A stretch of DNA of 40,110 bases from positions 1 through 40,110 of the IMG/VR virus record IMGVR_UViG_3300030117_006024, one strand, 5' to 3'. This DNA is from a virus. Within the stretch, counting starts at the first letter, position 1; every line of letters begins with the position of its first letter. Made by a program: the position numbers and the translations under genes. This document shows, in pieces, positions 25,683-36,959 of this stretch. The notes beneath the pieces were generated by a model. The model did no database searches. It was not told the DNA's origin and saw nothing but the letters and a program-made list of their open reading frames with translations.

Positions 25683-25705
25683 AGCGGCGCTGTTGCCGCT
25701 TTTTT
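25683..25705 (+). terminator. Intrinsic terminator in the early operon leader
   Basis: AGCGGC (25683-25688) pairs with GCCGCT (25695-25700), 6-base loop, followed by a T-run to 25705. It lies between the promoter candidate and the ribosome-binding site of the first early gene, so early transcription may need antitermination. It may also insulate the operon from host transcription in the prophage. Confidence 0.7.
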
Positions 25706-25720
25706 GAGAGGAGAGACACA

Positions 25721-26329
25721 ATGGAACAATTATTTTTTAGAGACGGTACACCGGCTGAGCCGCAAGAATTTACTTCAAAAGGCAAGCCGCTTGCTTTGAA
25801 CACTTGCCGCCGCTGCGGCGGTGGAGGTCGCTTTGGCCCAGAGGTTATTTTTTCGGGCAAGTGTTTTGAGTGCGAAGGACTTGGCAAATCATTGGTTCGC
25901 ATTCGCACTGCTAAAGAAAACGCAGCTATGGATCGTGCAAACGACCGCCGCCGAGCCAAAAAAATTGCTCAGCAAAAAACTGATGCCGAGATCCGCAAGA
26001 TCAAGAAAATGCGGCACGATGTGCGGCGCGGGTTTTGGGCCATCGAGGAACTTCACGCCAAAGCCGACCGCCCAAACAATTGGATCGGTGAGAAGGGCGA
26101 GCGTCGTGACTTCACCGGCACGGTTCGTTTTATCGCGAGTGGCGAGGGCAACTGGGGAACTTGGTTTCTTACTGTCATCGACACTGACCAGGGTGCAGTC
26201 CTTTGGTGGAACGCTTTTGCTGACGTGTCCAAAGGCGACGCAATCAAATTTAAAGCCACCATCAAAGATCACACTGAGCGTGACGGCGAAAAGCAGACCG
26301 TCGTTAACAGAGCAAAGGCGGTGGCCTAA
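25721..26329 (+). CDS. Zinc-ribbon plus OB-like nucleic-acid-binding protein, 202 residues
   Basis: The GAGAGGAGAGACACA leader sits directly before ATG 25721. Cysteines C29-x2-C32 and C48-x2-C51 (CRRCGGGG ... CFECEGLG) form a DnaJ-like zinc ribbon. A basic helix of about 50 residues follows (RANDRRRAKKIAQQKT). The C-terminal 75 residues (DFTGTVRFIASGEGNWGTWFLTV ... GDAIKFKATIKDHTERDGEKQTVVNRAK) look like a five-stranded OB domain. The combination suggests single-stranded DNA or RNA binding early in infection. First gene of the rightward early operon. Confidence 0.7.
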   Translation: MEQLFFRDGTPAEPQEFTSKGKPLALNTCRRCGGGGRFGPEVIFSGKCFECEGLGKSLVRIRTAKENAAMDRANDRRRAKKIAQQKTDAEIRKIKKMRHDVRRGFWAIEELHAKADRPNNWIGEKGERRDFTGTVRFIASGEGNWGTWFLTVIDTDQGAVLWWNAFADVSKGDAIKFKATIKDHTERDGEKQTVVNRAKAVA

Positions 26330-26359
26330 CGGCCCCGCCCAGAGAGGAGAGACACAATG
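26323..26359 (+). repeat. Intergenic linker repeat, copy 1
   Basis: GGCCTAACGGCCCCGCC followed by the GAGAGGAGAGACACAATG leader. The TAA stop lies in the loop of a GGCC/GGCC hairpin. Two near-identical linkers follow at 26710 and 27649. Confidence 0.7.
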
Positions 26360-26716
26360 GCTAAATACAAAATTTTTCAAATTCACTTGACCAATAACGA
26401 GGTCGCCCACGTCAACGCGCACGGCCACGACTCGGTCGATAAACAAGTGGCGCGGCTCGACCTTATGTCACCTTATCGTCACGACGACGTTTTGCCACTG
26501 GTGCGGGACGCTTTCGACAAAAATTATTTCAAGCACGTCGCAAACATCACGGCCTCGGGCCTGGAAGACGTTTTTACCATTGGCAACGGTTATGGCGACA
26601 AGGAAGATGTCGAGCTTCTCGACAGAATGCACAGCCTTAGCGTCGGCGATGTAGTCGAGGACGACACAGGCACGCGGTATTTCGTAAACACTTCTGGTTT
26701 TTTAGCGGTGGCTTAA
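26357..26716 (+). CDS. Early phage protein with SVGDVVED motif, 119 residues
   Basis: Preceded by the conserved early leader. N-terminal KYKIFQIHLTNNEVAHVNAHG, a middle YFKHVANITASGLEDVFTIGN, and a C-terminal MHSLSVGDVVEDDTGTRYFV that recurs in many small phage and plasmid proteins of unknown role. Predicted alpha/beta, soluble, acidic. No catalytic residues can be singled out. Confidence 0.65.
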   Translation: MAKYKIFQIHLTNNEVAHVNAHGHDSVDKQVARLDLMSPYRHDDVLPLVRDAFDKNYFKHVANITASGLEDVFTIGNGYGDKEDVELLDRMHSLSVGDVVEDDTGTRYFVNTSGFLAVA

Positions 26717-26747
26717 CGGCCCCGCTATTGAGAGGAGAGACACAATG
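26710..26747 (+). repeat. Intergenic linker repeat, copy 2
   Basis: GGCTTAACGGCCCCGC, then GAGAGGAGAGACACAATG. Same arrangement as copy 1, again including the stop of one gene and the start of the next. Confidence 0.7.
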
Positions 26748-27656
26748 ACAAAACGAGTAGTTCACGGTTTACCGATAAGCGGCATCGATCCAGAAACTGA
26801 CAAGCCTGCCATCGACAGCTTGGCTGGCGGTAGCTTCCTCGCGACGTATTACTACACCCGCCCTGGTCAAAAGAAGATCAGCGACGAGCAGATCGACCGC
26901 GCCATCGAGCTGGTCGGTGACGACGAGGTGTTTTTCTTGGACAACGGCGCTTTCACCGCATACCGCTCCGGTGAGCCAATCCACGAAGATCCCGATTACA
27001 TCGACGGCTTTTACGATTGGGCCGAGAGCGTCATGGACCGCTGCCCCCAAGCCGTCGCGATTGTGCCTGACGTCATTGGCGGCACTGCCGAGCAAAACTG
27101 GGAGCTGGCATCTCAGTTGCCTTGGGATCCAATGCGGTCCTGCTACGTCTGGCACTTGCATGAGCCGCTGGAAGTATTGAAGCGCATCATTGAGGAAGGC
27201 TACGCCTATATCGGGTTCGGCAGCTCCGAAGAATATTGGAAGGTCAACAGCCCAATCTGGCAGGACCGCATCGACGCTGCCTTCGCATATTTGGATGAGC
27301 TGTTCGCCGACGAGGATTTCGCTCAGACATATGTGCGCCCACAGATCCACATGCTGCGCGGCATCAGCGTGCAACATGCTTACCGGTTCGACAGCGCTGA
27401 CAGCGTCAACCTTGCGATCAACTGGAACCGTCAGCGCAAGAAGTCTAACGAGCAGCTCGGTGCCTTCCGCGCTCGCGTCGAGAGCAAGGCGAGCCAAGGC
27501 GACGTCTTTGGTGATCAATCAGCCTGGGGTACGCCCGCCGACGCCGGTCGATATGCCGGTTACCGCAACGCGCAGCTCCACTTGTTAGCCTATCAGGCTG
27601 AGCTGCGCGCTAACGATCTAACCTTCATACCCCAACAATTCCGGCGCGCGGCCTAA
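26745..27656 (+). CDS. TIM-barrel protein resembling DpdA-type DNA transglycosylases
   Basis: 303 residues with the early leader. Segments in order: VFFLDNGAFTAYRSGEP (about 62-78, with the FLDNGAF Asp where TGT enzymes have their DSGGF Asp), VAIVPDVIGG (104-113), CYVWHLHEP (133-141), YAYIGFGSS (153-161) and near the end MLRG ... FDSADSVNLAINW (about 205-226). This strand-end pattern matches TIM-barrel tRNA-guanine transglycosylase relatives, including the phage DpdA group that exchanges DNA guanine for 7-deazaguanines. No preQ0 synthesis genes (folE, queD, queE, queC) occur here, so a base would have to come from the host. The zinc site of tRNA TGTs is not evident. An unrelated TIM-barrel enzyme remains possible. 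Confidence 0.5.
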   Translation: MTKRVVHGLPISGIDPETDKPAIDSLAGGSFLATYYYTRPGQKKISDEQIDRAIELVGDDEVFFLDNGAFTAYRSGEPIHEDPDYIDGFYDWAESVMDRCPQAVAIVPDVIGGTAEQNWELASQLPWDPMRSCYVWHLHEPLEVLKRIIEEGYAYIGFGSSEEYWKVNSPIWQDRIDAAFAYLDELFADEDFAQTYVRPQIHMLRGISVQHAYRFDSADSVNLAINWNRQRKKSNEQLGAFRARVESKASQGDVFGDQSAWGTPADAGRYAGYRNAQLHLLAYQAELRANDLTFIPQQFRRAA

Positions 27657-27687
27657 CGGCCCCGCCACTGAGAGGAGAGACAAAATG
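27649..27687 (+). repeat. Intergenic linker repeat, copy 3
   Basis: CGGCCTAACGGCCCCGCC, then GAGAGGAGAGACAAAATG. Third copy of the stop-hairpin-leader-start linker in the early operon. Confidence 0.7.
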
Positions 27688-27954
27688 ACTAACCCAATTC
27701 AAACCCCCGCCGAATATGCCGCAACTCTGTACGAGGATGGCTACCGCGCCACAAGCCGCAGCGACTCTGACTTAATCGTTGAAGGTTTAAAAGCAGAATT
27801 GAAATTTCATTTGGGCTACGCGCTGGAAGTGCTGAACGAATTGGAAGAGATCGAATTTAAAAACGAGGCAACCAGCCCCACATGCCGCCAGAATACTTTT
27901 GCAATTATGCAGACCAAAAATGCGCTCGACACCGAGACACCGGATAAGAGTTAG
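27685..27954 (+). CDS. Small early protein, 89 residues
   Basis: Conserved early leader before ATG 27685. Acidic, helical in the middle (LIVEGLKAELKFHLGYALEVLNELEEIEF) with a less ordered tail. No recognised family. It is followed by a good terminator, so it closes the first early transcription unit. Confidence 0.6.
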   Translation: MTNPIQTPAEYAATLYEDGYRATSRSDSDLIVEGLKAELKFHLGYALEVLNELEEIEFKNEATSPTCRQNTFAIMQTKNALDTETPDKS

Positions 27955-28652: not shown

Positions 28653-28745
28653 ATGACGACAGAAGACTTACTTGAGATTCCCGACTTTTTAAACCGTAAA
28701 CTTTGGTCGCCGGAGCGGTGTCAATACGCGGCGGGAGCGGCGTGA
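28653..28745 (+). CDS. 30-residue peptide before the acetyltransferase gene
   Basis: The GAGAGGAGAGACA leader stands before ATG 28653, and its TGA overlaps the next ATG (TGATG at 28743-28747). The peptide reads MTTEDLLEIPDFLNRKLW at its start. The tight coupling and strong leader suggest that it is translated, either as a product or to deliver ribosomes to the next gene, which has no leader of its own. Confidence 0.55.
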   Translation: MTTEDLLEIPDFLNRKLWSPERCQYAAGAA

Positions 28746-29293
28746 TGGCAAAGCTCGAACACAAGCGCATCAAGCTAGATGAGGTAGCTCGATTTATCGA
28801 GCTGTATCATCATCACAGCAAGCCGCTTAAGCGTCACTTCTTTGCTATTGGCGCAACGGCTGAAGTATCGCCCTACTGGCCTCCCCACGATTTTTGTTTA
28901 GTCGGTGTGGCGCAGGTAGACAATTGCACGTCTGCATGGTCACGGCGCTATGACCACCTAGAGCTGCGTCGCCTCTGCATTGCACCGCACGCACCACCTA
29001 ACACTGCCAGCTTTCTTATTGGCAAAGTAACGCGCGCTTGCTGGGCAATGGGTGCAGAGGTGCTTGTCACTTACACACAACCTTATGAGAAGGGCACCGC
29101 CCTGGTTGCCAGCGGCTGGTGGATACAGCAGCGCGCCAAGATGGTGAAGTATGAAAGCGGCCGCATGGAGGGTGGCCTGATGAGATGGGTCACAGCGCGC
29201 AGCGTTGGGCCAGACAAGCGCGACCGAGAAAACACCAAACGAATTATTTCCGAGACTAACCAATGGTGGGCTGAGAACAGTCAGGCCGCTTAA
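28745..29293 (+). CDS. GNAT-like acetyltransferase, XF1762-type
   Basis: 182 residues starting with ATG 28745 (the frame is open back to 28703, but that would overlap the coupled peptide). N-terminal ARFIELYHHHSKPLKRHFFAIGA, then FCLVGVAQVDNCTSAW, a central LELRRLCIAPHAPPNTASFLIGKVTRACWAMGAEVLVTYT and C-terminal GTALVASGWW follow the XF1762 family, whose fold is GNAT-like. GNAT enzymes transfer acetyl groups from acetyl-CoA; the phage target is unknown (protein, nucleotide or modified base). It lies in the early operon, next to the DpdA-like gene region. Confidence 0.7.
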   Translation: MAKLEHKRIKLDEVARFIELYHHHSKPLKRHFFAIGATAEVSPYWPPHDFCLVGVAQVDNCTSAWSRRYDHLELRRLCIAPHAPPNTASFLIGKVTRACWAMGAEVLVTYTQPYEKGTALVASGWWIQQRAKMVKYESGRMEGGLMRWVTARSVGPDKRDRENTKRIISETNQWWAENSQAA

Positions 29294-29312: not shown

Positions 29313-30500
29313 ATGTTATCAATGAGAACCTACACATCGAGATCAAAGAAACGTGCGCTTTGTGTAAGCGGCCCAGAGCTGCAGCTTGTCGAAGGGCAGA
29401 AGACAAAGTGGTTTCCCAATACCCAAGCAGGGCAGCGAGAGGCAATGGCGTTCATGGAAATCTGCTATGAGCAAGCTGCTGAAAAAAAGCAGTGGACTGA
29501 CCACAGCGACACACCGCTATTTGGATCACCCGACGAGCCAGGAAGTTTCTGTCACAAGTTTATTGAGTACGAGACCAGTCGCACGCTGCCGAGCATTGGC
29601 GACCTTTCTATGGTTGAGGTCAGAGAAAAGGCGTGCGCGCTACGCCAGATCGGTGAGTTCAAGCATGACGGTGTCAAGCTGCGCGATGTAAAAATTGGAG
29701 ACGTGCAGCGCGGCGTGATCATGTCCGACATCGTGCAAAAGATAGCGGCGTTGGGTGCCAAGGCGACGGTCAAACGAAAGTGGACCTATTTTAAGCAGCT
29801 CTTCGACTACGCGGTTGCTTGTGATCAAATTAAGCAAAACCCGTGCGCATTTAAAAATGGCAAAATGCCATTTCACGGTAACACGGTCTCTCACACTGAG
29901 CGGCTCAACGATCTAGATGAGGTCATTGCTAAAGTCCTTGAACATGCACCAGAGCGCTACAAACTTGCTATGATTTTTGCAGCATACACTGGCTTGCGAG
30001 CGGGGGAACAAATTGCCCTCACTTGGGATGATATTGATTTTAAGCGCAAGAAAATCAACGTCGATAAGGCTAAGAAAAAGACTGGATTGATTGGTTGTCC
30101 AAAAAGCACGCGCGGAAGGCGCAAGGTTGATTTGCCGCCTAACCTCGCGTTGCTGCTAAAAAAATGGGAAGTCAATCAATCACCGGCTGAGCGTCAAAAA
30201 CATAATTTGGTTTTCCCGACGCAGTTCGGTGACTATGCCAGTACAGAGACTTGGCGGCGCAGCGGCTTGCACAAAGCTTGCAAGAGTGCTGGAGTAGAAA
30301 ACATACGATGGCATGATTTTAGACACTTTTATGCCTCAACGGTGATTTTTAAATTTAACACGTCGCCGCAAAAGGTTTGTCGGTCAATGGGTCATCACGA
30401 CTTTTCGTTCACGCTGAGACAGTATGGTCACTGGTTTGATCAGTTGCAGGACGATAGCGAACTTGGCGATCAGATTTCGGCATTAATGGGAGGAATGTAA
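29313..30500 (+). CDS. int: Tyrosine integrase
   Basis: 395 residues with the early leader. N-terminal arm-binding type region (first about 90 residues, beta-rich), a core-binding helical domain (about 95-190) and a catalytic domain. Catalytic residues: R229 in YTGLRAGE, Lys in the beta-hairpin (about K264, GCPKSTRGRRKV), H334-x2-R337 in WHDFRH, H361 in SMGHHD, Y371 in LRQYGHWF. All are present, so the enzyme should be active. It would recombine the attP at 25.3-25.6 kb with the 3' end of a host tRNA-Glu gene. Confidence 0.92.
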   Translation: MLSMRTYTSRSKKRALCVSGPELQLVEGQKTKWFPNTQAGQREAMAFMEICYEQAAEKKQWTDHSDTPLFGSPDEPGSFCHKFIEYETSRTLPSIGDLSMVEVREKACALRQIGEFKHDGVKLRDVKIGDVQRGVIMSDIVQKIAALGAKATVKRKWTYFKQLFDYAVACDQIKQNPCAFKNGKMPFHGNTVSHTERLNDLDEVIAKVLEHAPERYKLAMIFAAYTGLRAGEQIALTWDDIDFKRKKINVDKAKKKTGLIGCPKSTRGRRKVDLPPNLALLLKKWEVNQSPAERQKHNLVFPTQFGDYASTETWRRSGLHKACKSAGVENIRWHDFRHFYASTVIFKFNTSPQKVCRSMGHHDFSFTLRQYGHWFDQLQDDSELGDQISALMGGM

Positions 30501-35593: not shown

Positions 35594-36478
35594 ATGGTAA
35601 AAATTGACATTGAACAATTTGACCCCGCGCTCTCGGCCGCACAGGCAGAGATGGAGCGGCGGGAAGCTGCGCGGCCGCGCCGCCTTCATCTTGGAATGAG
35701 CGGTGGCGGCATGTGTGCGCGGCGGCAGTGGTACGGCTGGCTATGGGCAGCAGCTCGCGCAATTCCATTTAAAGGTCTGAGCGCCATCGATGACGGTAAT
35801 CGAGGTGAGGACGTCATTGCTGCGCGCATTCAAGGCGTACCGGATTTAATATTGCAGACCAGTGACCCTGAGACCGGTCGGCAGTTTGAGGTGACAGATG
35901 CCGGTGGTCATGTGCGCGGCCACTTTGACGGTATTGTATTTAATCACCCGACAGCTCCCAAGACGTGGCACGTCTGGGAATGCAAGGTGGTCAATGAAAA
36001 GAAATTCGCCGCGTTTAAAAAACTCAAAAGTGACCTAGGCGAGAAGGCCGCGCTAAAGGCGTGGGACTTTGTCTACTGGGTCCAGGCCCAACTTTACATG
36101 CTTTACGGCGGGTACAAGCGGCATTGGATTGTTGTGGCGTCTGCAGGGTGCCGCGATTGGGATTCGGCGCGCACCGAGCTTGATCGGAGCGAAGCGGAGT
36201 TCCTGGCCGAGCGGATGCGCACAATGGTTGAGAACGTGGACGAGCTGCCAGCTCGCGTCTCGGATAATCCCAAAGCATTTGATTGCCGGTGGTGCGACTT
36301 TAAAGCGGTGTGTCACGAGGATGCGCCGGTTGAACATAACTGCCGCACCTGTCGCTTTAGTAGCCCCGTGGACGGTCCTCAGTGGGTCTGTGAGCGCTTC
36401 GAGAAAACCCTGACACCGGACGAGCAGGTGTCGGGCTGCAGCTCGTGGACGGGGCGGGAGGTGCTTTGTGCGGCGTGA
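35594..36478 (+). CDS. Cas4/RecB-like exonuclease with iron-sulphur cysteines
   Basis: 294 residues from ATG 35594; the frame is open to 35501 but that part overlaps DUF669 and the terminator. RecB-type motifs: GHFDGIVF (D112), WECKV (E129-x-K131) and QAQLY (Q164-x3-Y168). C41 near the N-terminus plus C231, C234 and C240 (CRWCDFKAVC) match the four-cysteine Fe-S cluster of Cas4/AddB nucleases. Two more CxxC-like pairs follow in a C-terminal extension (NCRTCRFS, VCERF, GCSSW), possibly a zinc site. Likely 5'-end resection feeding the Sak4 system. No Shine-Dalgarno: the start lies just after the terminator T-run, which is odd. Confidence 0.85.
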   Translation: MVKIDIEQFDPALSAAQAEMERREAARPRRLHLGMSGGGMCARRQWYGWLWAAARAIPFKGLSAIDDGNRGEDVIAARIQGVPDLILQTSDPETGRQFEVTDAGGHVRGHFDGIVFNHPTAPKTWHVWECKVVNEKKFAAFKKLKSDLGEKAALKAWDFVYWVQAQLYMLYGGYKRHWIVVASAGCRDWDSARTELDRSEAEFLAERMRTMVENVDELPARVSDNPKAFDCRWCDFKAVCHEDAPVEHNCRTCRFSSPVDGPQWVCERFEKTLTPDEQVSGCSSWTGREVLCAA

Positions 36479-36959
36479 AAATGATTTTTACCCGACGCCG
36501 CAGGCAATCGTGGATCGGATTGTACGCCAGTTCAATTTTGTGGGTGACGTATGGGAGCCGTGCGCCGGTGATGGTCGTTTTGTTGAGGCGTTGGTGCCCA
36601 AGGTGCGCACGGTGATCTGCGGGGATATCGCGAGCGGCCAAAACTTCTTTCACTATGAGCGCGCACGGGCCGCGACCCTGGTGACCAACCCACCGTTCAA
36701 AGACATTCGACCTTTTATTGATCACGCGTTTCAGATCGGCGTGACGACAATGGTGCTGGTGTGCCCCGAGCGCCTCTGGGCGTGCAAGAAGGGTCATGAG
36801 CAGTGGAAGCGCCACCGGCCCACCGTGTGGGCCAACATGGATTGGCGCGAGGATTACCTGGGTAAGGGCGGCGCGCCTGATCGAGCGCTGGCTGTCGCCT
36901 ATTGGGCAGCTCCACACAGTGCCGTTTGTGATTATCAGATCTGGGGGCGGGATGATTAA
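36468..36959 (+). CDS. Small DNA adenine-type methyltransferase
   Basis: 163 residues from GTG 36468, overlapping the nuclease by 11 bases. Motif I-like VWEPCAGDGRF (about 28-38), CGDI at strand 2, and catalytic motif IV NPPF (74-77) show a class I SAM-dependent N6-adenine or N4-cytosine methyltransferase of the NPPF type. N-terminal DFYPTP is shared with phage Dam-like enzymes. Short for a full MTase with a target-recognition domain, so specificity may be low. Probably protects phage DNA from restriction. Confidence 0.78.
   Translation: MRRENDFYPTPQAIVDRIVRQFNFVGDVWEPCAGDGRFVEALVPKVRTVICGDIASGQNFFHYERARAATLVTNPPFKDIRPFIDHAFQIGVTTMVLVCPERLWACKKGHEQWKRHRPTVWANMDWREDYLGKGGAPDRALAVAYWAAPHSAVCDYQIWGRDD

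Follow-up and report, generated by a model that had tools for sequence, protein, structure and literature searches.

A putative compact DpdA-type DNA transglycosylase in a leader-bounded accessory cassette of a temperate phage

By homology and modelled fold, the gene at positions 26745-27656 (plus strand) of the virus record IMGVR_UViG_3300030117_006024 belongs to the DpdA/TGT family, with a predicted transglycosylase activity; the whole record, 40,110 nucleotides long, was analysed and is called the window below. We consider it probable, though by no means certain, that this gene encodes a compact DpdA swapping guanine in DNA for a host-derived 7-deazaguanine, and that a temperate phage carries it as an accessory cassette. 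In the proposed mechanism, the TIM-barrel transglycosylase would cut the glycosidic bond of selected DNA guanines with an aspartate, probably Asp219, as the nucleophile, and preQ0 or one of its derivatives, a 7-deazaguanine base, would be inserted in place of guanine. The base would be taken from the host queuosine pathway or from salvage rather than made by the phage, whose genome would end up modified at few positions, probably as protection from restriction. The cassette itself was apparently exchanged through repeated 14-nt leaders located at gene starts. Phages with dpdA as their only such gene are a published class; the new elements are a separate clade without linked supply genes, a temperate setting near an integrase, a leader-bounded cassette, and a natural empty site in a sister phage.

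The open reading frame starts with ATG and specifies a 303-aa protein, in which all motifs quoted in the original prediction were confirmed: FLDNGAF (residues 64-70), PDVIGG (108-113), VWHLHEP (135-141), IGFGS (156-160), and FDSADSVNL (215-223). These motifs are not due to chance, because the protein matched phrog_887 (queuine tRNA-ribosyltransferase) with an E-value of 4.7e-27 and a tblastn search with it (E <= 1e-5) retrieved 77 phage records, each with less than 60% identity, among them those of Pantoea phage MED16 and of 7-11-type Salmonella phages. Fifteen residues (H7, G8, P10, D66, N67, G68, P108, D109, H137, G159, H202, L204, R205, D219, and S220) are invariant across 15 aligned phage proteins, and the catalytic core of this pattern was still kept when 37 sequences were aligned. 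Scans against Pfam and NCBIfam gave no match above noise, including no match to the Pfam TGT family PF01702 up to an E-value of 1, and phmmer and profile searches against PDB sequences revealed no relative. A DNA search with window positions 20000-40110 against named phages returned no match. One of the homologous genes, in phage PKM.Lu.22.1 (34093-34857), is labelled as a putative Co/Zn/Cd efflux system membrane fusion protein, which is probably a misannotation.

Structure prediction had been proposed as a check of the assignment, and it produced a TGT-type TIM barrel. The AlphaFold2 model has a confident barrel (pLDDT 86 overall, pTM 0.81), with pLDDT values of 84-98 in 10-residue blocks over residues 1-250. 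After structural realignment of the top-ranked PDB chains from Foldseek, all 50 entries listed were members of the TGT family, with Z-scores of 14.0-15.4 and rmsd of 3.4-4.9 over 221-236 residues: Cap10 scored 15.4, the archaeal TGT 1iq8 15.1, and the Zymomonas mobilis TGT 14.8. Another TIM-barrel family is not favoured by this realignment, in which the 50 entries listed are TGT-family members only. The order of Foldseek E-values places TrpA and other TIM barrels on top and 1iq8 at rank 19, and the sequence homology to DpdA therefore matters for the assignment. Several of the named structure matches in BFVD are phage queuine tRNA-ribosyltransferases.

Three invariant aspartates are proposed to form the active site: Asp66 in DNGAF (codon at 26940-26942) as the general base, Asp109 in PDVIGG (27069-27071) as the base-binding residue, and Asp219 in SADS on the last barrel strand (27399-27401) as the nucleophile, all encoded on the plus strand. 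In the model each is positioned at, or close to, the end of a barrel strand, and their order matches that of Asp102, Asp156, and Asp280 of the Z. mobilis TGT, to which they would correspond. This equivalence was drawn from motif and strand order rather than from superposition, because the profile alignment of the protein to seven host tRNA TGTs gave no sequence-level match, a result that itself speaks against the main reading. The tRNA TGTs possess a C-terminal zinc site, CxCxxC..H; the 303-aa protein has only two cysteines, Cys100 and Cys133, and thus no such site.

The modified nucleoside known from related phages is 2'-deoxy-7-amido-7-deazaguanosine (dADG), and Cap10 of type IV CBASS is an enzyme of the same fold that uses a protein as acceptor. 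With these bacterial and archaeal TGTs and Cap10 the window protein shares the fold (Z 14-15) and the succession of Asp motifs in the barrel; it differs in the missing zinc site, in having no sequence-level match to them, and in its gene neighbourhood. Hutinet et al. 2019 described 76 phages with dpdA and without synthesis genes (PMC6884629), and the window resembles this class in carrying dpdA with no preQ0 or archaeosine synthesis genes. By LC-MS, virion DNA of Salmonella phage 7-11 contains 50 dADG per million nucleotides, about 0.02% of G (PMC6884629), and that of Pantoea phage MED16 contains 354 per million, about 0.13% of G (PMC8306585); no modification was measured in Orion, another DpdA-only phage (PMC6884629). 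Thus, the positive DpdA-only relatives show trace modification only, which counts against the main reading. The window protein is 30% identical to the MED16 DpdA (AZS06278.1) over about 79% of the query and has the same invariant motifs, and both phages lack preQ0 synthesis genes. However, it is longer (303 aa versus 261) and belongs to another clade, and MED16, whose DNA has been measured, was described without integration genes. Identity to the DpdA of 7-11, likewise a DpdA-only phage, is 31%, but 7-11 is a 90-kb phage, while the window phage, at 40 kb, has integrase and repressor genes. The alignments with both DpdAs span most of the barrel. Taken together, sequence family, predicted fold, and homology to DpdAs of phages with measured dADG support the predicted DpdA/TGT type.

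Comparison of the gene with its counterparts in two related contigs, L002 and L003, gave dN of 0.001-0.004 and dS of 0.06-0.15. The resulting dN/dS of 0.02-0.03 across the three contigs corresponds to strong purifying selection, and therefore the gene is kept functional. It is nevertheless dispensable: the sister phage L244 (IMGVR_UViG_3300030098_004965), with DNA about 90% identical, lacks the three-gene block 25721-27656. Since L244 reads across both window ends, the window is approximately a complete genome, that of a temperate phage.

The block is delimited by copies of a 14-nt leader, TGAGAGGAGAGACA, one of which (26729-26742, plus strand) precedes the dpdA-like gene. With up to two mismatches allowed, the window contains 10 copies versus 0.23 expected, nearly all of them a few bases 5' of gene starts; exact or one-mismatch copies begin at 25705, 26341, 26729, 27669, 28023, 28635, 29298, 31210, and 34329. 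The copies at 25705-25718 and 27669-27682, both on the plus strand, are the left and right junctions of the block: in L244, the sequence to the left of the former runs straight into the sequence to the right of the latter. L244 thus represents the naturally occurring empty site of the dpdA cassette, joined exactly at the leader. The exact pattern followed by ATG was found in only 34 IMG/VR stretches, and in multiple copies only in this phage group (L003, L004, L223, which is the L002 contig, and L244). The leader seems to mark swappable gene cassettes, and we infer that the genes are exchanged by recombination at the leaders; such recombination fits the data because the L244 join falls at the leader and because the cassette DNA is 97-98% identical in L002 and L003 versus 68-92% for the neighbouring segments. 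Start-associated sequences were described in Cluster K mycobacteriophages (PMC3203893), which likewise have a short identical sequence just 5' of several accessory-gene starts. The window leader differs from them in sequence, the phages are unrelated, and the window phage has an empty site joined at the repeat.

The same cassette block encodes two proteins of unknown function, of 202 aa (25721-26329, with a phrog_2319-like C-terminus) and 119 aa (26357-26716, with a sub-threshold YodL match). It is followed by a gene for an unknown 89-aa protein (27685-27954), which is present in L244 and absent after dpdA in L002 and L004. The cassette sits between the lysis and integrase genes, and the tyrosine integrase (29313-30500; PF00589, E 6.5e-20) adjoins the cassette array; all these genes are on the plus strand. 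A DNA methyltransferase-like gene with an NPPF motif (36468-36959, plus strand; phrog_799, E 1.3e-23) is a third candidate DNA-modifying gene, and the phage may thus encode three such enzymes: the DpdA, an XF1762-type acyltransferase described below, and the methyltransferase-like protein.

The absence of preQ0 pathway genes, which had been noted from the open reading frames, held up in profile scans: no QueC, QueD/PTPS, or YhhQ was found in the whole window record, and the window ORFs scanned against Pfam included neither FolE nor QueE. Reliance on host or environmental 7-deazaguanine would follow from this absence. YhhQ (DUF165) is a putative preQ0 transporter. In the phylogenetic tree, the window DpdA falls in a long-branched clade of 18 rows (support 100/100) that excludes MED16 and 7-11; all 14 clade members tested match phrog_887, and the clade is often found near an integrase. 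Unlike this clade, in which none of the 18 records carries YhhQ, QueC, or QueD, many of the homologues sampled do: 22 of the 29 other IMG/VR dpdA records (Fisher p 1e-7), a count that includes some sub-cut-off matches. With contigs of at least 10 kb only, the numbers are 0/14 and 20/27 (p 4e-6); both p-values overstate the case, as they were computed on related records, some of them fragmentary. The wider dpdA family is thereby tied to preQ0, while the substrate of the window clade is less certain than that of the rest of the family, and the main reading is less sure on this point. Four genome bins holding clade relatives have a TGT and no clear QueC, and one bin with a clade relative has a strong YhhQ match; short phage contigs cannot be binned reliably, and this is weak evidence.

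Close dpdA genes were found in none of the 385 Alphaproteobacteria and 369 Gammaproteobacteria genomes sampled. Capsid relatives of the window phage with up to 57% identity occur in Alphaproteobacteria, which makes this class a plausible host only. Several further gene associations were observed. A YhhQ gene adjoins dpdA in L006, L012, L013, and many IMG/VR loci without preQ0 synthesis genes. A small protein with the motif DW(D/N)xAKGPCCGVLACA recurs 5' of the clade's dpdA in L029, L030, L031, and L191. PAPS-reductase-type genes occur near dpdA in L108 (5435-6226, judged by sequence only) and L013 (1-663, as annotated).

An XF1762-type acetyltransferase gene had been noted 1.1 kb downstream of dpdA, and it was found at 1.05 kb. 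This XF1762/Mom-like gene (28745-29293, plus strand; the mechanical ORF starts at TTG 28703) specifies 182 aa from its ATG and matches NF045478 with 79 bits, above the cut-off of 50, as well as phrog_1384 (E 6e-20). The model of the protein (pLDDT 75) has a GNAT fold; Mu Mom (8bv8) aligns with Z 14.9 over 146 residues, level with other GNATs. The likeness to the Mu Mom/XF1762 family thus comprises the fold, the NF045478 score, and a match to the Mom profile, but the score for Pfam Mom PF25680 (E 1e-4, 22 bits) is below the curated gathering score of 27.1, and the substrate is putative. The gene is a recent replacement in the window, because a remnant of about 22-30 codons of a 135-aa gene lies immediately 5' of it (28653-28745, plus strand, with a TAATG end overlapping the Mom-like start), and the 135-aa gene is intact at this position in L002, L003, L004, and L244. 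This small pre-integrase gene has the motif DLLxIPxFLxR at its N-terminus, and the DpdA of L022 (2548-3525) has it at its C-terminus.

The original prediction also suggested that the XF1762 protein further modifies the base. In such a two-step pathway, DpdA would install an aminated 7-deazaguanine, which the Mom-like GNAT would then acylate. Tight operons of the two genes in three other phages point in this direction: dpdA-YhhQ-small gene-XF1762 in L038 (4725-6554), XF1762-dpdA-QueE with 4-nt ATGA-type overlaps in L093 (7549-9292), and YhhQ-small gene-dpdA-XF1762 with an ATGA overlap between the last two genes in L108 (3541-5447). However, in 79 of 80 XF1762 loci the fetched flanks contain no dpdA, L002, L003, and L004 keep the same dpdA (DNA 97-98% identical) with no XF1762 gene, and the target of Mu Mom is adenine. 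We also considered and rejected a dedicated DpdA-linked XF1762 lineage, as the dpdA-linked XF1762 proteins occupy dispersed positions in the tree. Chemical coupling of the two enzymes is therefore possible in principle and improbable for the window phage; the two genes were brought together repeatedly and independently, which points to shared anti-restriction islands rather than to a single pathway. Modification of host tRNA by a phage-borne tRNA-guanine transglycosylase appears somewhat less probable still. The TGT fold and the PHROG name agree with it, but the zinc-site cysteines and a PF01702 match are absent, and the DpdA of phage 9g failed to rescue an E. coli strain deleted for tgt (PMC6884629). 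The least probable alternative, and a very improbable one, is a passenger gene that is decaying or already inactive: its absence from L244 would allow this, but the low dN/dS and the full set of proposed catalytic residues argue the opposite.

The strongest competitor, although unlikely, is functional divergence of the clade, with the TGT fold and catalytic Asp kept and another free base or acceptor, e.g. a protein, being used. It gains from the long, fully supported branch with no supply gene and from Cap10 being among the closest folds. It loses from D66, D109, and D219 being invariant both inside and outside the clade; Cap10 and the TGTs are tied in Z, so that the fold does not discriminate, and no linked supply gene would be needed in a host that produces preQ0 itself. 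A version in which the diverged TGT lineage, with a non-preQ0 base or non-DNA acceptor, possibly counters or mimics a deazaguanine-based defence is marginally less likely. Exchange of DNA guanine for a host-derived 7-deazaguanine by a compact DpdA remains the preferred explanation.

The DpdA-only phages leave two questions open, the source of the base and the role of trace modification. The window clade offers a clean test of both, as no synthesis or import gene was found together with its dpdA, and natural near-isogenic pairs exist: the window phage or L003 with dpdA, and L244 without it. To judge by the XF1762-dpdA operons of other phages, Mom-like acyltransferases may in some cases cooperate with 7-deazaguanine modification or move together with it, and the operons of L093 and L108 deserve attention despite their interpretation as islands.
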